Below are positions 2,185-25,206 of a stretch of DNA of 28,621 nt, one piece after another (position 1 is the stretch's first letter; each line of letters starts with the position of its first letter). The stretch comes from a virus. The notes beneath the pieces were generated by a model. That model was not told the origin of the DNA. It was given only the letters and a program-made list of their open reading frames with translations, and ran no database searches. The DNA is taken from positions 1-28,621 of the IMG/VR virus record IMGVR_UViG_3300032267_000283; one strand, given 5' to 3'. The position numbers and the translations under genes were made by a program.

Positions 2185-3425
2185 AAACAACAATTAAAGT
2201 AGGAAGTGACTTCTCAGGAGTAGGAGCATTCAACCAGGCCCTAATGAGATTAGGGATAGATTATCAGGAAGTATTCGCCTGTGATATGGATAAGTTCGCT
2301 AGGCAAACATTCATCCATAACTATGGAGAGCCGGAGTACTATCCTATGAATGTATATGATAGAGAGATACCAAAGGAGAGTTTAGATATCTATATGACAT
2401 CACCTCCATGTCAGGCATTCAGCACAGCGGGTAAAAGATTAGGTAAAGAGGATGCAAGAGGTATTTTATTCTTTAACAGTTTAGAATTTATTCAGGTTAA
2501 TAATCCACGTTGCTTTATTTTTGAGAATGTAAGAGGATTACTATCTCATGATAAGGAGAATAAAAAGGATAAGATAGGCAGAACTTTTAAGGAGTGGATA
2601 GATTATCTAGGTGGTAAATCAGTTAATGGAATAACTACTATGATGCCAATAGATGGGGCTGTACCTTATCATCTACATTACAAAGTATTGAATGCTAAGA
2701 AACATGGAGTGCCACAAAATAGAGAGAGGGTATTTTTAATAGGCATTAGAGATGATCAGGATAATACATTCACATGGCCAGCTGAGGAGGAGTTAACTAA
2801 AAGATTAAAGGATGTACTTGAGCCTATTGTAAATGATAAGTATTTTTTGAGTGAGAAAATGATTAATGGATTCTTAGCTCATAATAAAAGACATATTGAG
2901 GAGAAAGGTCAAGATGGATTTAATTGGAAACCAAAGGATGAAACACAAATAGCTAACTGTTTAAGAGCAAATGCAGCACTTTGTGCTACTGATAATAGTA
3001 TTAAAATAGGTTATATTAATCAGGATACTCAGGCATCTGCATTATATAGTGATGATGGATTAGCTCCTACAATGTGTGCAGGATCACATGGATATGCTAT
3101 GGGATATATTCAAGTTAAATCAGGCACAGCTAAAGGATATGAGGAAGCTACTGAGGGTGATAGTATTAACTTTTCTGTACCTAATAGTGAAACGAGAAGA
3201 GGTAGAGTAGGTAAACAAGTAGCTCAAACATTAGATACTGGATGCAATCAGGGGGTGATGGATAACTACAAAATCCGTAGACTAACCCCTCGTGAATGCT
3301 TCCGATTAATGGACTTCCCTGATACATTCACCTGGCCTGTATCAGATAGTCAAGCCTACAAGCAAGCAGGCAATAGTATAGTAGTAAGAGTACTAGAGAA
3401 AATTATTAATAATCTACCATTATGA
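2181..3425 (+). CDS. DNA (cytosine-5-)-methyltransferase, orphan
   Basis: This 414-residue enzyme contains the ordered C5-methyltransferase motifs. Motif I is DFSGVG (residues 10-15) for S-adenosylmethionine, motif IV is SPPCQ with catalytic C77, motif VI is ENVRG (115-119), motif VIII is QNRERVF (179-185), and near the C-terminus are RRLTPRECFRLMDFPD and QAGNS (motifs IX-X). The variable target-recognition region lies between VIII and IX. The frame is open from 2115, but 2181 is preferred because it begins at the family's usual N-terminus and overlaps the previous stop. No partner endonuclease is encoded nearby, so it probably protects phage DNA from host restriction or marks it. The region around 2450-3240 looks more AT-rich than its neighbours, a hint of separate ancestry. 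Confidence 0.93.
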   Translation: MKTTIKVGSDFSGVGAFNQALMRLGIDYQEVFACDMDKFARQTFIHNYGEPEYYPMNVYDREIPKESLDIYMTSPPCQAFSTAGKRLGKEDARGILFFNSLEFIQVNNPRCFIFENVRGLLSHDKENKKDKIGRTFKEWIDYLGGKSVNGITTMMPIDGAVPYHLHYKVLNAKKHGVPQNRERVFLIGIRDDQDNTFTWPAEEELTKRLKDVLEPIVNDKYFLSEKMINGFLAHNKRHIEEKGQDGFNWKPKDETQIANCLRANAALCATDNSIKIGYINQDTQASALYSDDGLAPTMCAGSHGYAMGYIQVKSGTAKGYEEATEGDSINFSVPNSETRRGRVGKQVAQTLDTGCNQGVMDNYKIRRLTPRECFRLMDFPDTFTWPVSDSQAYKQAGNSIVVRVLEKIINNLPL

Positions 3426-3928: not shown

Positions 3929-4106
3929 ATGACGATGTGACAGTTCTCTTATATAGGGTCCTTAAAAAATAGAGCATTAAAAAAGTTTGTACTTTGGAAA
4001 ATTTATCGTCATATCGTCATGAAATCACTGAAACATAAGCCTGCATTGGTTTATATCCATGACGATGATTTTATTTTATCGTCATAAACTGTCTTTTTAT
4101 CGTCAT
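3929..4106. other. Candidate replication origin with six ATCGTCAT iterons
   Basis: The 8-mer ATCGTCAT occurs six times in 178 non-coding bases. The copies are at 3929-3936 (reverse), 4005-4012, 4013-4020 (tandem), 4059-4066 (reverse), 4078-4085 and 4099-4106. Three direct copies are preceded by TT, giving TTATCGTCA, which matches the DnaA box TTATCCACA at 7 of 9 positions. An A/T-rich stretch at 3961-3990 could be the unwinding element. A DnaA-like protein is encoded immediately left and the primase-helicase immediately right, the usual surroundings of a phage origin. The array could alternatively be an operator of the primase-helicase promoter, or both. Confidence 0.7.
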
Positions 4107-4111
4107 TAATT

Positions 4112-4119
4112 TATATTTG
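4112..4119 (+). promoter_or_regulatory. TATATTTG -7 element just before the primase-helicase start
   Basis: TATATTTG fits TAnnTTTG and ends 4 bases before the ATG at 4124, so a transcript starting a normal distance downstream would be leaderless or nearly so. No good TTTG -33 box is seen at the expected distance, where two iterons lie instead. This suggests a promoter controlled by the iteron-binding protein. Moderate to low confidence. Confidence 0.4.
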
Positions 4120-6897: not shown

Positions 6898-6909
6898 TTT
6901 GTATATTTG
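6877..6909 (+). promoter_or_regulatory. Bacteroidota-type promoter for the recombination operon
   Basis: TTTG at 6877-6880 and TATATTTG at 6902-6909 are separated by 21 bases, within the range of the host consensus. The predicted start near 6914 leaves a leader of roughly 18 bases before the ATG at 6932. It overlaps the end of the nuclease gene. Confidence 0.6.
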
Positions 6910-9434: not shown

Positions 9435-9642
9435 GGACCAACAGCTATCCGAATGGATGCGAAAAGAGATACGGGGCAAGCTATCCAAGAGATATAAGCT
9501 AACTCATCTATCTGAGGACATGGGGGTAAACTATGCTAAGCTATATCGCTTCATGCAGGGTAGGAATGTGACCACTGAGATTTACGACTCATTTTTTAGA
9601 GTATATTTGTCTAAATGGAACTCTTACTTATCATACCTATAG
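9406..9642 (+). CDS. XRE/Cro-like helix-turn-helix regulator (78 aa)
   Basis: The start is taken at the ATG at 9406, overlapping the DUF3127 gene; the frame is open to 9367. A basic helix (WMRKEIRGKLSKRYK) precedes LTHLSEDMGVNYAKLYRFMQGRNV, which fits the four-helix XRE-type HTH (L-x-x-L-S, G-V, then the recognition helix Y-A-K-L-Y-R-F). It probably binds as a dimer to a palindrome; the two palindromes at the early promoter are candidate sites. With no integrase or opposing repressor present, it more likely tunes early expression than lysogeny. Confidence 0.75.
   Translation: MRAVTIYLSEDQQLSEWMRKEIRGKLSKRYKLTHLSEDMGVNYAKLYRFMQGRNVTTEIYDSFFRVYLSKWNSYLSYL
9602..9609 (+). promoter_or_regulatory. 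Possible internal -7 element
   Basis: TATATTTG occurs 5 bases before the ATG at 9615. The nearest -33-like box is only TTTA at 9581-9584, 17 bases upstream. It lies within the HTH gene, so it may be chance. If active it would give a nearly leaderless transcript for the membrane protein. Confidence 0.25.
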
Positions 9643-9863: not shown

Positions 9864-10060
9864 ATACAGTAGATAAGATAGATGCTACTGCGGATGCTAT
9901 TAAGTACTCTAAGCACTCCTGTGTTCAGCTGTACAAGATTAGGATGAAGTACGATGGTCCACAGCCTAGGGAATGCTTTTGTGCATCGGTTAGGAGAAAG
10001 GTATGGTACAAAGATTTTATGGTATGGTATGAAAAAACTCTTAGACAGGTACATCAATAA
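9842..10060 (+). CDS. Hypothetical phage protein (72 aa)
   Basis: The start is taken at the ATG at 9842; the frame is open to 9755 but that part is in the preceding gene. The product has an acidic N-terminus (QTDIDTVDKIDATADAIKY) and a C-terminal CFCASVRRKVWYKDFMVWYE segment with clustered C, W and Y. Such ECFC...WY endings occur in small Bacteroidota phage proteins of unknown role. It ends inside the next gene. Confidence 0.65.
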   Translation: MFEQTDIDTVDKIDATADAIKYSKHSCVQLYKIRMKYDGPQPRECFCASVRRKVWYKDFMVWYEKTLRQVHQ

Positions 10061-10574
10061 CCATTACCATGAGGTAAGGGCTTACACGCTGTACTTTCTA
10101 ACTAAGCTAGGGAGTAAGATTGAGGCAGATACCGTAATAAATAACAGTTACCTGCATGTGCTAACCATCAATGAGGATGCTGATACTGAAGACCAGGTGA
10201 AAAGTTACCTATTGAACACCATCAAGTATCAGATACTATGGAACACATCACTGAGCCATAGGGATGACAGGATAACTTCAATGGAGTATAAGCCCAGTGA
10301 GCAGGTAGATGATGAGCAGGACCTGCGAGATAAGATACTTGAGGATAAGATATACAGCACTCACAAAGGGATGATTGAGATATATAGATCACAAATAAGT
10401 GACAACGTGCACAGGATAGTGTTTGAGGCATACATAGACAAAGGATACACTACAGCTAGAGGGATGGCTAAGTACTTTGATATACCGGTTACCTCAGCTC
10501 ACTACCTGATAACTGAAATTAAACAAAATTTACGCAATTTACAATATAGGTATGAGACTATCTCAAATAATTAG
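10029..10574 (+). CDS. Sigma-70-like (ECF-type) transcription factor, putative late sigma
   Basis: The ATG at 10029 gives 181 residues; the open frame extends to 9954 but overlaps the previous gene. Residues 10-75 look like sigma region 2: HEVRAYTLYFLTK, then ADTVINNSYLHVL (in the place of the AEDLVQD-type motif), then QVKSYLLNTIKYQILW. Residues 128-172 look like region 4: GYTTARGMAKYFDIPVTSA reads as a helix-turn-helix. An acidic linker separates them. The layout matches small sigma-like proteins that other Bacteroidota phages carry before their terminase genes. It is the last gene before the late region, and the first late-promoter motif lies in its 3' end. The exact sequence match to known sigma factors is weak by eye. 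Confidence 0.65.
   Translation: MKKLLDRYINNHYHEVRAYTLYFLTKLGSKIEADTVINNSYLHVLTINEDADTEDQVKSYLLNTIKYQILWNTSLSHRDDRITSMEYKPSEQVDDEQDLRDKILEDKIYSTHKGMIEIYRSQISDNVHRIVFEAYIDKGYTTARGMAKYFDIPVTSAHYLITEIKQNLRNLQYRYETISNN
10521..10551 (+). promoter_or_regulatory. Late-promoter motif, copy 1 (before 10552)
   Basis: AAACA at 10521-10525 and CAATATAGGT at 10542-10551 directly abut the ATG at 10552. Spacing is identical to copies at 13051, 19925 and 25176. It lies within the 3' end of the sigma-like gene and would start the terminase transcription unit. Confidence 0.6.
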
Positions 10575-10728
10575 CATACTAGCTACATTCACTGCATTAA
10601 CAGGTGCATTCTTTCTAATGAGAGATAACTACTTCTATGGATGTAGAGCCTTTGGGATATGGGTGGTCTTATATTACGCATGGCTATTTTTAGAACAATA
10701 CGAATATGACAAAGAAAGTAAAGAGTGA
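10552..10728 (+). CDS. Small membrane protein (58 aa), first late gene
   Basis: The frame begins MRLSQIISILATF and encodes 58 residues with two hydrophobic segments (about 5-22 and 34-48) and a charged tail (EQYEYDKESKE). Its ATG immediately follows the late motif TAGGT and overlaps the end of the sigma-like gene. It continues into the next start at 10706. No family was recognised. Confidence 0.65.
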   Translation: MRLSQIISILATFTALTGAFFLMRDNYFYGCRAFGIWVVLYYAWLFLEQYEYDKESKE

Positions 10729-13050: not shown

Positions 13051-13081
13051 AAACACTTTGCCTGCATAGAATAATATAGGT
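13051..13081 (+). promoter_or_regulatory. Late-promoter motif, copy 2 (before 13083)
   Basis: AAACA (13051-13055) and TAATATAGGT (13072-13081) occur in the same register as the other copies, one base before the ATG at 13083. It starts at the base after the large terminase stop and would drive the tail-tip, hub and tape-measure genes. Confidence 0.7.
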
Positions 13082-19489: not shown

Positions 19490-19926
19490 TGAACTCACTA
19501 CAAGCAATCATCGACCACATTGAGCAGTTCTACAATAGCCATCTACAAGTAAAGAAAGTAGGTAGTGATTTCAAGGAACAGCTATTTAACTTCGCTACTC
19601 AGGATGAGAAGTATCCTATTGTTTTTATTGTACCGGTAACTGTTAACCCTGCAGATAACACCTCAGAGTTTAACTTTGACATCTACTGCTTTGACATCAT
19701 CCAAAAAGATAGGGCTAACATCATCACAATCCTAAGTGATACACAGCAGATATTGAATGACCTGTATGTTTACTTTACCTATAGCAACGACTATAGCTTT
19801 GATGTGATTGGTGTACCTAACTTCCAACCTTTGAACAATGATCTACTTGACTATGCTGCAGGCTATGTCATGAATATAACCTTAACTGTGAATGATTGGA
19901 CCAACTGTGCTGTGCCTTTACAATAA
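19489..19926 (+). CDS. Tail completion / terminator-like protein (putative)
   Basis: This 145-residue protein begins MNSLQAIIDHIEQFYNSHLQVKKVG and has alternating strands (YPIVFIVPVTV, FNFDIYCFDI). It is similar in size and pattern to small tail proteins of the terminator/completion type. It starts at the last base of the tape measure stop and precedes a late-promoter motif. The assignment rests on size, secondary-structure impression and position only. Confidence 0.6.
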   Translation: MNSLQAIIDHIEQFYNSHLQVKKVGSDFKEQLFNFATQDEKYPIVFIVPVTVNPADNTSEFNFDIYCFDIIQKDRANIITILSDTQQILNDLYVYFTYSNDYSFDVIGVPNFQPLNNDLLDYAAGYVMNITLTVNDWTNCAVPLQ

Positions 19927-19955
19927 ACATTTCGGAGGGTTAAAGTAATATAGGT
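19925..19955 (+). promoter_or_regulatory. Late-promoter motif, copy 3 (before 19956)
   Basis: AAACA (19925-19929) and TAATATAGGT (19946-19955) abut the ATG at 19956 with no gap. The spacing is the same as in copies 1, 2 and 5. Only two bases overlap the previous stop, so it lies in a gap created for it. Confidence 0.7.
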
Positions 19956-20868: not shown

Positions 20869-21313
20869 ATACGCAAATACAGGTGAGTTCAATGTGCTAT
20901 ATCCTACTAGGAGGAAAATGGCTACAATCCTAAAAAGAATAATCAGGAATGATGTTGTGGATGGTGAGGGTACACTCGTAGAAAGTATCCGTATCAATGC
21001 CAAGATAACAGGCTTCCAAAAGTTGGAGATACAAATAGTGGCCATGTACTACTTTATATTCCTGAACAATGGAGCTTATCTATGGAATGGTGGAGTGATA
21101 ACCCCTCGTGATTTCGTGGCACAATTTACGGATGAGCTAAATGCTGCAGGTATCACAGCAGAAATTTATAGACAGTACACTGCATGGCTCACAAAAAAGT
21201 ATCCATTGGTAGAGGCTGTTGAAGTGCTTGAAAAACAGCAGAAAATTGTGTACACATTTGAGGCAGTTGACCCGCCTCCAGGCTTTACTCCTGGGTTTCC
21301 ATTAGATGTCTAA
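20861..21313 (+). CDS. Neck / tail-completion protein (putative, HK97 gp10-like position)
   Basis: This 150-residue protein contains LVESIRINAKITGFQKLEIQIVAMYYFIFLNNGAYLW, which has the length and strand pattern of small neck or tail completion proteins. The second half holds AEIYRQYTAWLTKKYP. It ends tail-to-tail with the minus-strand gene, overlapping its last 12 bases. The assignment is tentative. Confidence 0.55.
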   Translation: MARYANTGEFNVLYPTRRKMATILKRIIRNDVVDGEGTLVESIRINAKITGFQKLEIQIVAMYYFIFLNNGAYLWNGGVITPRDFVAQFTDELNAAGITAEIYRQYTAWLTKKYPLVEAVEVLEKQQKIVYTFEAVDPPPGFTPGFPLDV

Positions 21314-22042
21314 CTCTTTCTTCATTGAAAGGATATTGAAAACATAAACGAGTGGTAAGACACCTATCTTATCACTCTTAGTTATGTCCCCATTTGTCAA
21401 GCCATAGATGGTTTGCTCCCATGACCACTTTACTTGAGTTTGCTCTTTCTCAATTTCTTTAATCTCTTCAGGGTCCATGTTAGCTTTCTCTTCATCAGTG
21501 AGTGGAGTATCTAGATCACCGGTGAATAAGTTTTCATAGGTCTTAAGAAAGTTATCTCTGAACTTCAGAAACTCATGTATCAATCCATACACATCAGTGA
21601 TTGGTAGGTCATGAAATTTCTCAGCTCTAATGTTGCAGTCAAAGTCATAAGGCTCCATGATTTCATCATCCCATTCATTGAGTTTAGTTTGACGGTACAG
21701 GATAGCACATACCTTATCAAGATTTGTGATGTAGTTATTGCTAAAGAAATAGTCAAGGTCAATGTACTCGTAAAGGGTTAGCTTACTGAGTGGCTTGAGA
21801 GTTAACCCTAACACCTCATGCTTGTATCTTTTGGATGGCTCAGAGGTACACCATCTAGACTCGTTAACAAGTTCTGCTAACTCATCCACGTCAAGGTCCT
21901 CAATGACATCAATAGGCTCATCCGATAAAATAGAGAGAGCCTCACTGTTGTAGTGGTAGGCTCCCTGTTCTCTATCTATCTGACTAAATTCAATGAACTG
22001 CTCAAGCGTTACTTGGCTCCACTGCTTCGGTAGCTTGATCAT
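21302..22042 (-). CDS. Putative tail assembly chaperone 2 (minus strand)
   Basis: This 246-residue protein lies on the reverse strand, starting at 22042. Its N-terminus (KLPKQWSQVTLEQFIEFSQI) resembles that of the neighbouring minus-strand gene, so the two look like diverged relatives. The C-terminus WSWEQTIYGLTNGDITKSDKIGVLPLVYVFNIL is like the end of tail-assembly chaperones that bind the tape measure. The two minus genes overlap by 41 bases. Reading through the frame between them would need a shift of +1 or -2, and a TAG stop lies just before this ATG, so a classical -1 frameshift fusion is not supported. Confidence 0.7.
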   Translation of the reverse strand: MIKLPKQWSQVTLEQFIEFSQIDREQGAYHYNSEALSILSDEPIDVIEDLDVDELAELVNESRWCTSEPSKRYKHEVLGLTLKPLSKLTLYEYIDLDYFFSNNYITNLDKVCAILYRQTKLNEWDDEIMEPYDFDCNIRAEKFHDLPITDVYGLIHEFLKFRDNFLKTYENLFTGDLDTPLTDEEKANMDPEEIKEIEKEQTQVKWSWEQTIYGLTNGDITKSDKIGVLPLVYVFNILSMKKELDI

Positions 22043-22550
22043 TAGCTTGTTGTCCTATTTTTTGTGCGATAAACATCATGTATGGAATGGAGATAGCTGC
22101 ATTCAATTTACGGATGAGCTTTGCTTTCTGCTTGATGTGTGCATCGGTGTAGTGCTCAGTAGGTGTAAGGTCTTCACGTTTGAACATGATTGCCAACATC
22201 TCAGAGATATATCCTTTCTCTTTTCTTAGTGCTACTTTCTCAATCATCTTAGTATCACGTACAGTTAACTTCATTTGTGCTTTGTAGATGTACCCCTCAA
22301 TCTCTAGCTCCTCAATAGTTGGGTAGTCTTTGCGTTCTGCTGAGTTAAATTCTTTTACCATCCCTACAAAGTCAGCCACATCATAGTCCCAAAACTCAGA
22401 CTCAGGTATCCCAAGGTAAGCGAACACCTGGAGGTGCTTATCAATGGGGTCAAGTTCCTGATTGTTATTGATTTCAGTAATGACTTCAAACTGTTCAATG
22501 GTGAGCTCTTCAAGTTGGTTGGGAATTTCCCTGTTTAAGATAGTTATCAT
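22002..22550 (-). CDS. Putative tail assembly chaperone 1 (minus strand)
   Basis: The ATG at 22550 gives 182 residues; an upstream TTG at 22568 lies inside the -7 promoter box and is rejected as a start. The N-terminal segment (REIPNQLEELTIEQFEVITEI) has the T-I-E-Q-F pattern of tail-assembly chaperones of Bacteroidota phages. The rest is helical and acidic, with a basic patch (HIKQKAKLIRKL). Together with the next gene it forms the only reverse-strand unit in the genome. Family assignment is by pattern only. Confidence 0.7.
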   Translation of the reverse strand: MITILNREIPNQLEELTIEQFEVITEINNNQELDPIDKHLQVFAYLGIPESEFWDYDVADFVGMVKEFNSAERKDYPTIEELEIEGYIYKAQMKLTVRDTKMIEKVALRKEKGYISEMLAIMFKREDLTPTEHYTDAHIKQKAKLIRKLNAAISIPYMMFIAQKIGQQANDQATEAVEPSNA

Positions 22551-22562
22551 AGTTAAATTTTT

Positions 22563-22592
22563 GAACAAATATACGTTTTTTTTAATATAGGT
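22563..22592 (+). promoter_or_regulatory. Late-promoter motif, copy 4 (before 22595)
   Basis: GAACA (22563-22567) and TAATATAGGT (22583-22592) lie two bases before the ATG at 22595. The spacer is one base shorter than in the other copies and contains a run of eight T. It would drive protease, capsid and major tail genes. Confidence 0.6.
22566..22573 (-). promoter_or_regulatory. Host-type -7 element for the minus-strand genes
   Basis: On the minus strand, TATATTTG occupies 22573-22566 and predicts a start near 22561, 11 bases before the ATG at 22550. A clear TTTG at the -33 position is not seen. It overlaps the AACA half of the plus-strand late motif. Confidence 0.5.
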
Positions 22593-22594
22593 AG

Positions 22595-23575
22595 ATGGCT
22601 AAAAAAGATATCCCTACTTACAAAATAACTATTGACCCTGAATACGCTGAAAACGGACAGGACTTAGGCATTGAACAGATAGCATTCACATCCAATCCTG
22701 CAATCAAGGTCAAAGGGATGGCATTCAATTCTCAAGCTAAGGCTTTATTCTTTACGGATGAGCTCAAATATAGAGTAACTGCACCTGCTTTGATACCTAT
22801 GGAGATATATCGCTTTGATGAGGATACAGATGAGGAGTACAATGTCAAGTTTACTAAGGAGGAAATTGAGAAAATTCATGGAAAATTCATGCAGCAGATG
22901 GTCAACCGAGACCTATTTAACCTGGAGCATGATCAATCTCAGACAGTTCCTGCCTATGTACTTGAGGCATGGATAGTAGACAACCCAAAAAAGGATAAGG
23001 CATACTCATCATTTGGCATTGAAGTGCCTGAGGGTACGCTAATGGTAACTGCTCAGGTAACTGACAAAGAGTACTATGCTGAGCTTGTAGCACAGGAGCA
23101 GATAGGTTTCTCTATTGAGGGATACTTAGGCATGAAATTAAACGAGCAAAAACAATCCCAAAATAAAACACAAATGAATGAGTTAATGTTGCCAGATGGC
23201 GAGCACATCATCAACGAAAAAATCTATATCATCAAGGATGGTAAAGTAGTTGAAGTAAAAGATGTTGAAAAAGAAGAGGTATCTGAAGAGATAGCCCTAG
23301 AGGACACTGTAGTTGAAGAGGAAGTAACAGCAGAAGTTCCTGCAGAGGAAACTACCATGGCAATAGATCCTGCAGTAGATGCAGAGGCTATCCTTGCTAT
23401 AGTTAAGCCTGTAATGGATGAGCAAATGAATGCTTTACTTGCTATGATTGCTGAAATCAAAAATCAATTAGAGGAAGTTCTATCTGTAGAGGTAGAGGAT
23501 GAGGAGATGAGTGAGGCTGTGACTTTAAGTGCACATCAAAAACTAAGTAACTTTGTAAAATTTAATAATAAATAA
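22595..23575 (+). CDS. Prohead serine protease (XkdF-like) fused to scaffold region
   Basis: This 326-residue protein has an XkdF-type N-terminal protease: FNLEHDQ with H112, VLEAWIVD (122-129), KAYSSFGIEVP and GFSIEGYL with probable catalytic S173. The C-terminal part (about residues 215-310) is rich in E, V and A and looks like a coiled scaffold, followed by a helical tail. Protease-scaffold fusions cut the scaffold out of the prohead during maturation. The major capsid gene follows after one base. Confidence 0.85.
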   Translation: MAKKDIPTYKITIDPEYAENGQDLGIEQIAFTSNPAIKVKGMAFNSQAKALFFTDELKYRVTAPALIPMEIYRFDEDTDEEYNVKFTKEEIEKIHGKFMQQMVNRDLFNLEHDQSQTVPAYVLEAWIVDNPKKDKAYSSFGIEVPEGTLMVTAQVTDKEYYAELVAQEQIGFSIEGYLGMKLNEQKQSQNKTQMNELMLPDGEHIINEKIYIIKDGKVVEVKDVEKEEVSEEIALEDTVVEEEVTAEVPAEETTMAIDPAVDAEAILAIVKPVMDEQMNALLAMIAEIKNQLEEVLSVEVEDEEMSEAVTLSAHQKLSNFVKFNNK

Positions 23576-23576
23576 A

Positions 23577-24521
23577 ATGCGTAAATTAAGATTTGATTTG
23601 AACATTGATGCTAGTGCGTTACTAGCACCCAACGCTGAGGCATTCTATGCTCAAGCATATTTAGGAAGCACTGAGATTGCTGATAACTTCCGTACACTTC
23701 CAGGTATCAAGTATAAGACTAAGATTGGTACAGTTACTTTTGGTACAGGATTGTTAGCTACATCTCCATGTAACTTCCCTAACCTTAACACAGATGACTT
23801 AAGCTCACATGAAGTAGACGTATGTGCTCTTTCTGCTATGGCTCAGGTATGTCAGTTTGACCTTGAGCAGTCATTCGTATCTTTACAAATGTCAGCAGGA
23901 TCTAATGGTGATTTCTCTGTAGCTAATTTCTTTAACTTCTATTGGTCAGAAATGGCTAACGCTGTGAACGGACAAATTGAAGCTCTACGTTGGAAAGGTG
24001 ATATCTTATCTGTTAACCCACAACTTGCTTTGTGTGATGGTTACGAGAAGCAATTAGCCGCTTCAGAATTAGCAGGTGATGTTATCAATGGTGGCGGTGG
24101 TGCTATCACTACATTCTCAGGTGTTGGTGGATTAGGTGCAAAATTAGAGGCTGCTTTTGCTTTAGTTCCTGCAGCTATTGCATCACGTACAGCTGATTTA
24201 CGTATCTACATGCCTACTCAATTAGTTAACATCTACCGATTAGGAGTAGCTTCAGGTAACACTCAAGCGTTCATCACTCAAGATTTGTCTTTGACTTACT
24301 TAGGTATCAAAATTGTTCTTTGTCCAGGAATGAGCAACAACAAATTTGTGATCACATTGAAAGATAACTTAATCTTTGCTTTTGATGGTGAGGGAGACCC
24401 ATCTGACCTACGTGCAGTGAACTTATCTGACACTGTTGCTGAGCCTGTAATCAGAACTCGTGCTAACATGAAAGTTGGATTTAGCTTTGTTAATCCTACA
24501 GACATCGTTTACTACGCATAA
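23577..24521 (+). CDS. Major capsid protein
   Basis: This 314-residue protein directly follows the protease-scaffold and resembles HK97-fold capsid proteins of Bacteroidota phages. The N-terminal arm is followed by GIKYKTKIGTVTF (E-loop-like), a long helix around EMANAVNGQIEALRW, a glycine-rich loop (GGGGAITTFSGVGG) and the C-terminal beta segment. Codons are more regular than in other genes, as expected for a highly expressed protein. A strong hairpin lies just after it. Confidence 0.88.
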   Translation: MRKLRFDLNIDASALLAPNAEAFYAQAYLGSTEIADNFRTLPGIKYKTKIGTVTFGTGLLATSPCNFPNLNTDDLSSHEVDVCALSAMAQVCQFDLEQSFVSLQMSAGSNGDFSVANFFNFYWSEMANAVNGQIEALRWKGDILSVNPQLALCDGYEKQLAASELAGDVINGGGGAITTFSGVGGLGAKLEAAFALVPAAIASRTADLRIYMPTQLVNIYRLGVASGNTQAFITQDLSLTYLGIKIVLCPGMSNNKFVITLKDNLIFAFDGEGDPSDLRAVNLSDTVAEPVIRTRANMKVGFSFVNPTDIVYYA

Positions 24522-25122: not shown

Positions 25123-25145
25123 GCAATTCTACCTCTCTATATTAG

Positions 25146-25173
25146 AGCCCTGCCATATGGTAGGGCTTTTTTT
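25146..25173 (+). terminator. Intrinsic terminator after the major tail gene
   Basis: AGCCCTGCC (25146-25154) pairs with GGTAGGGCT (25159-25167) around ATAT, with one G-T pair, then seven T (25167-25173). It closes the unit begun at 22595; the next late motif starts three bases later. Confidence 0.9.
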
Positions 25174-25175
25174 AT

Positions 25176-25206
25176 GAACATTTGACAAAGCTAAATTAAT
25201 ATAGGT
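25176..25206 (+). promoter_or_regulatory. Late-promoter motif, copy 5 (before 25207)
   Basis: GAACA (25176-25180) and TAATATAGGT (25197-25206) directly abut the GTG start at 25207. The motif follows the terminator at once. This unit would run through portal, connector, holin, endolysin, spanin and exonuclease. Confidence 0.7.

Follow-up and report, generated by a model that had tools for sequence, protein, structure and literature searches.

Overlapping divergent promoters of two predicted classes at a conserved phage gene junction: a probable early/late arrangement based on sigma exchange

The window analyzed here, that is, the whole stretch of 28,621 nucleotides, is a 28.6-kb virus record that comprises a replication block and a packaging and structural block, with a single pair of minus-strand genes located within the structural block. 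The first minus-strand gene is separated from a prohead-protease-like gene on the plus strand by an intergenic gap of only 44 bp (22551-22594). The genes and predicted signals at and around this junction are:

21302-22042, minus strand: 246-aa protein, second gene of the minus pair, with its own ATG and a 41-nt overlap with the first gene (open reading frame and alignment)
22002-22550, minus strand: 182-aa protein, first gene of the minus pair (open reading frame conserved in 98 loci; no family match)
22560-22561, minus strand: predicted transcription start, which would leave a 10-11 nt leader before the ATG at 22550 (from the spacing in F. johnsoniae)
22566-22573, minus strand: -7 box TATATTTG of the host primary-sigma type, the putative promoter of the minus pair (exact match)
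22564-22567, plus strand: -35-like element AACA of the predicted late promoter (AACA in 95 of 98 relatives, TACA in 3)
22583-22590, plus strand: -10-like element TAATATAG of the same promoter, separated by 4 nt from the ATG at 22595
22593-22595, plus strand: predicted late transcription start at or beside the AUG (from the distance between AACA and the start codon)
22595-23575, plus strand: prohead protease-like protein (Peptidase_S78_2/XkdF), first gene of the predicted late operon (PF14550, E=1e-8)
23577-24521, plus strand: capsid-like virion structural protein (phrog_1623, head and packaging, E=6e-10)
25144-25169, plus strand: predicted intrinsic terminator (11-bp stem and T run) closing the late operon, directly 5' of the next late promoter

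The products of the minus-strand pair had been described in an earlier note on this DNA as chaperones, an identity for which we find no support. Neither protein has a significant match in Pfam, PHROG or PDB, no slippery heptamer was seen by eye at the overlap of the two genes, and the tail assembly chaperone rows obtained with Foldseek/BFVD are insignificant and come from a poor model (pLDDT 58). A G/GT-like frameshift is common, albeit not universal, in tail assembly chaperones. An 11-bp hairpin at 21350-21377, within the end of the second minus gene and just beyond the convergent plus-strand gene, could be the terminator of the upstream late operon.

The two sets of promoter elements are interlocked. 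The minus-strand box and the plus-strand AACA have two bases in common, CA at 22566-22567, in agreement with the overlap proposed in the earlier note, and the plus-strand motif that it had placed at 22563-22592 is indeed present, with its limits corrected to 22564-22590 (AACA-N15-TAATATAG, followed by the ATG at 22595). The further proposal that divergent promoters of two classes overlap here holds up as well: both elements are kept as a unit in all 98 related loci, all from metagenomic contigs, which represent 39 distinct 45-mers with many near-duplicates and extend down to 52% protein identity. Across these loci, the minus box is TATATTTG in 94 and TAAATTTG in 4, and lies 14-17 nt from the minus-strand start codon. 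In one clade (L162-L164), the late -35 element has drifted to TACA whereas the minus box is intact, which argues that the minus box is under selection of its own.

We scanned the composite pattern over IMG/VR and analyzed at least 113 loci. Among the matches listed (113 loci), 107 have a homolog of the protease and 104 a homolog of the minus-strand gene, and divergent-ORF junctions account for 104 of the 113 sites among the matches listed compared with 1 of 29 for a control pattern of the same composition. Because most of the composite matches belong to one family, these counts indicate that the element is specific to this junction, not that it recurred independently. A palindromic operator at the gap was considered and rejected because its left half is not conserved.

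The plus-strand motif belongs to a class with four further copies in the window:

10522-10549, plus strand: late promoter AACA-N16-CAATATAG, within the 3' end of a sigma-like gene; present in distant relatives
13052-13079, plus strand: late promoter AACA-N16-TAATATAG, 5' of ORF 13083
19926-19953, plus strand: late promoter AACA-N16-TAATATAG, 5' of ORF 19956
25177-25204, plus strand: late promoter AACA-N16-TAATATAG, 5' of ORF 25207 and the portal gene

This motif class is real. The window contains 5 matches to the pattern AACA-N15/16-[TC]AATATA-N2-5-[AG]TG vs 0.037 expected (300 Markov resamples, with a maximum of 1). AACA is located 15 or 16 nt 5' of all 4 plus-strand copies of TAATATAG in the window and of 218 of the 243 plus-strand copies in the best 80 relatives, the number retained in our first search for relatives. 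The spacer is 15 nt at the junction vs 16 nt at the other four sites. Each of the five copies is followed, after 2-4 nt, by the start codon of an ORF of the packaging, structural or other late regions, namely, a 58-aa ORF, ORF 13083, ORF 19956, the protease-capsid genes, and ORF 25207 with the portal gene. The 58-aa ORF (10552-10728), whose ATG is just 3' of the 10522-10549 promoter, is unannotated, falls below the length of the 60-aa ORF list and directly precedes the terminase genes; the same promoter arrangement is found in distant relatives.

The distance from the -10-like box to the start codon is 2-3 nt where the spacer is 16 nt and mostly 3-4 nt at the 15-nt site, so that AACA and the start codon are separated by a nearly constant distance at all late sites, which suggests initiation at or beside the AUG and predicts leaderless late mRNAs. 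Leaderless mRNAs are rare in F. psychrophilum (5.5%; PMC9723704), and in F. johnsoniae, 87% of the leaders are longer than 10 nt (PMC6847099). We also considered TTTG-N19-TAATATAG, which would make the plus-strand motif a promoter for the host sigma, and rejected it because the TTTG is missing from the remaining late sites as well as in some clades.

The spacers of the late promoters at 19926 and 25177 also open with a conserved TTT, so that conservation of the spacer alone is insufficient to identify a box at the junction; none of the other late promoters has AATATA after AACA. The argument for the minus box accordingly draws on its fit to the host consensus and on the clade with TACA. Promoters of F. 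johnsoniae have a -7 element, TAHHTTTG, located 4-5 nt from the transcription start, as well as AT-rich blocks at -18 and -28 and a -33 element that is weak (PMC6847099). Both TATATTTG and its sole variant TAAATTTG fit this consensus, the position at which they differ being free in it. There are 7 copies of TATATTTG in the window vs 2.5 expected, a number reached in none of 100 shuffles, and when the 44-bp gap is resampled, TAHHTTTG appears on the minus strand by chance in 1.8% of the cases and TATATTTG in 0.16%. As a sequence class, the -7 boxes are real. Three of the other copies precede genes on the plus strand:

4112-4119, plus strand: early-type box TATATTTG before the helicase/primase-like ORF 4124; kept or nearly so in most relatives
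6902-6909, plus strand: early-type box TATATTTG before ORF 6932; kept in most relatives; TTTG upstream at N21
9602-9609, plus strand: early-type box TATATTTG before ORF 9615 and the sigma-like gene; kept in close relatives

Relative to the box at 22573-22566, an A-tract and the late -10 box sit at about the -18 and -28 positions; the TAATATAG at 22583-22590 doubles as the AT-rich block ~28 nt upstream of the predicted minus-strand start. No -33 TTG was found at N17-23 for the minus promoter, and it is missing at the 4112 and 9602 boxes too; in Flavobacterium, the -33 TTTG is reported as weak and hence not defining (PMC6847099). A scan for E. coli-type promoters gave a count below that of its own shuffles. 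A second minus-strand TATATTTG, at 22772, was rejected as the minus promoter because it is kept in only 17 of 79 relatives.

The boxes at 4112-4119 and 9602-9609 end 4-5 nt before an ATG, a distance that suggests that leaders may be absent from some early mRNAs as well. Directly 5' of the first of these boxes and the ATG of ORF 4124, at 4060-4111, there are spaced repeats of the ATCGTCAT type, which are replaced by GTTGTCACGGA repeats in the distant relatives L124, L130, L137 and L159; an operator or origin iterons are possible roles for these repeats.

The promoter type, together with kinship to the cultured Nonlabens phage P12024S, leads us to infer that the hosts of this large phage family are probably Bacteroidota. 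The search of a genome collection for the host yielded a sole match, to one contig of a pond MAG.

One of the genes that follow an early-type box encodes a candidate for the factor that reads the late class:

10029-10574, plus strand: phage ECF-type sigma-like protein, 181 aa, with sigma2 and sigma4, the proposed late sigma factor (AlphaFold model, Foldseek, co-occurrence)

Sequence searches with this protein against Pfam, PHROG and PDB found no match to any sigma family. Its homologs share a common start at MK. For a model built from 30 homologs (pLDDT 78.5), sigma factors, sigma complexes and sigma-like chains lead the Foldseek rows, and sigma factors or proteins resembling them make up nearly all of the VIA list. 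Sigma2 is matched by residues 1-75 and sigma4 by residues 107-177, with rmsd of ~2.3-3 (for example, 5uxx_C, Z 7.5 and rmsd 2.4, and 2h27_D, Z 6.7 and rmsd 2.8), where all Z values are below 8, which is modest for helical folds. According to the model, the protein would contain sigma2 and sigma4 without sigma3, as an ECF sigma requires. Among the structural matches of the model, chain C of 9n9q, an RNA-guided transcription complex, ranks first.

The distribution of the promoters points in the same direction. Promoters with an AAC-type -35 element and a 16-nt spacer co-occur, and co-vary by clade, with homologs of ORF 10029: distant homologs (49-67% identity) adjoin AACA-N16-[TC]AATATA sites, and one clade of these has CAATATAA at all its sites. 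On the basis of the fold and this co-occurrence, we propose that the product of ORF 10029 may act as the late sigma factor. Given that its gene lies 3' of the conserved TATATTTG at 9602, the late sigma would itself be produced from an early promoter.

A comparable arrangement exists in P12024S, which has a related protease gene (32% identity) and encodes a protein annotated as containing sigma-70 region 2. The late-type sites of P12024S have the form AACA-N15/16-CGTTAATATA-nn-ATG, and at two divergent junctions, 5400 and 23949, the sequence AACAAATATA-N-CGTTAATATA-nn-ATG is found, in which AACAAATATA yields a minus-strand TATATTTG facing small minus-strand genes unrelated to the pair in the window. 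At 3019, the two boxes are adjacent and have no bases in common. Where relatives of P12024S lack the minus gene at the homologous position (L184 at 713, and L187), the box is gone too; at position 2989 of L184, the minus gene is reduced to a stub and the box is retained. Among P12024S-type relatives with less than 75% identity (L189-L195), no matching promoter was found 5' of the probed gene. An hhalign comparison of the ORF 10029 protein with P12024S_33 yielded nothing significant, so that these may be separate sigma proteins. In L182 (JQ823122.1, 26626-26770), there is an unannotated 26-aa minus-strand ORF with a TAGATTTG box, apparently 5' of another P12024S late promoter, and at the annotated P12024S_43 the sequence is TATATTGC, in agreement with the SM5 motif TAnnTTGY (PMC9723704).

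Taken together, these observations, which establish the elements, how they overlap, how well they are conserved and that they go together with the sigma-like gene, are best accommodated by a divergent early/late promoter that works by sigma exchange. We regard this as the probable explanation, in which the sigma that reads each class, the points of initiation, the order of events and the exclusion are inferred. Under this scheme, host polymerase with the primary sigma would read the minus-strand TATATTTG, so that the two minus genes would be transcribed from about 22561; the same early promoter class would drive the replication genes and, through the 9602 box, the phage sigma-like gene. The phage sigma would then direct polymerase to AACA-N15/16-[TC]AATATAG promoters, that of the junction among them, and the late polymerase would start leaderless mRNAs for the protease, the capsid protein and the next gene, as far as the terminator at 25144-25169. 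At the junction, the -7 box of the minus promoter overlaps the late -35 element, and the predicted minus start has the late -10 box ~28 nt 5' of it, a placement such that one polymerase is expected to cover both sites. Mutual exclusion would follow from this geometry, so that the late sigma-polymerase would silence the minus pair as it activates the plus operon; the assignment of early and late timing is read from gene content only. A stronger version is more tentative, and we hold it to be possible but somewhat short of an even chance: the junction would be a self-contained switch in which the phage sigma, without a repressor, replaces leftward early transcription with rightward transcription of leaderless late mRNAs, in a module reused wherever an early minus gene adjoins a late operon, in the family of the window and in P12024S.

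The most serious alternative, unlikely yet with an appreciable share of the probability, is compactness: both promoters would be real, a tiny gap would force them to overlap, exclusion would play no part in regulation, and both strands would be transcribed throughout infection from different genome copies. Many copies of a phage genome exist late in infection, and gaps of 33-65 bp with start codons near the promoters force an overlap, just as the 44-bp gap with its short leaders would have one regardless of whether exclusion matters; the adjacent, unshared boxes at 3019 in P12024S fit this explanation as well. It accounts less readily for the common CA, which persists in 98 of 98 loci despite the varying gap length, and for the recurrence of the element in P12024S. 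A different reader of the late class, either host polymerase with another phage activator or a host ECF sigma, in place of ORF 10029, appears distinctly less likely. The hosts carry several ECF sigmas (PMC9723704) and ORF 10029 lacks a sequence-level match to a sigma family, but both halves of its model match sigma2 and sigma4, and the motif and the sigma homolog co-occur and co-vary by clade.

That AACAAATATA is a site-specific extended -35 element, or an activator or repressor site of the plus promoter, with the minus genes starting elsewhere, seems improbable. The block right after AACA is invariant and ATTTGAACAAAT is palindrome-like in some loci, as such a site might be, but the left half of the palindrome varies, the block fits TAHHTTTG including the free positions, and P12024S-type phages without any minus gene lose the box. 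A chance coincidence in an AT-rich gap, where TAHHTTTG turns up in 1.8% of resamples, can be dismissed almost entirely in view of the conservation in 98 of 98 loci with 39 distinct sequences and of the divergent junctions at 104 of 113 sites among the matches listed vs 1 of 29 in the control.

The proposed sigma exchange at this junction has both precedents and distinctive features. In phi29, early and late promoters are divergent and close together. The phi29 early promoters A2b/A2c and the late promoter A3 share one control region in which a single event turns early transcription off and late transcription on (PMC10899789). The junction resembles that region in having overlapping divergent early and late promoters, by geometry and conservation, with promoter activity predicted; unlike in phi29, where the host sigma reads both classes and p4/p6 make the switch, a phage sigma is the proposed switch here, and the core boxes themselves interlock. 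Phage sigma factors produced from host-type promoters, SPO1 gp28 and gp33/34 and T4 gp55, open a new class of late-gene promoters. The proposed phage sigma would likewise be made from a host-type promoter and open the late class, with the difference that it is an ECF-type two-domain protein in a Bacteroidota-type phage, with an ECF-like AAC -35 element and start codons 2-4 nt after the -10 box, so that leaderless mRNAs are predicted. The TATATTTG/TAAATTTG box with AT-rich blocks near -18 and -28 resembles the Bacteroidota primary-sigma promoter (PMC6847099, PMC9723704), whereas the minus promoter lacks the -33 TTTG and has its box on the -35 element of another promoter. In plasmid pLS20, overlapping divergent promoters form a genetic switch that uses DNA looping and a regulator (PMC4207663), unlike the sigma exchange proposed for the phage.

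In the literature on temporal gene control in Bacteroidota phages, we found little, and nothing direct. The present analysis gives a concrete map of two promoter classes for a phage of a probable Bacteroidota host, as well as a candidate late sigma factor that sequence family searches miss. It also predicts that late mRNAs lack leaders, a rare condition for mRNA in the hosts, and the bases common to both promoters of the small element allow their mutual exclusion to be tested directly, also in the cultured phage P12024S.
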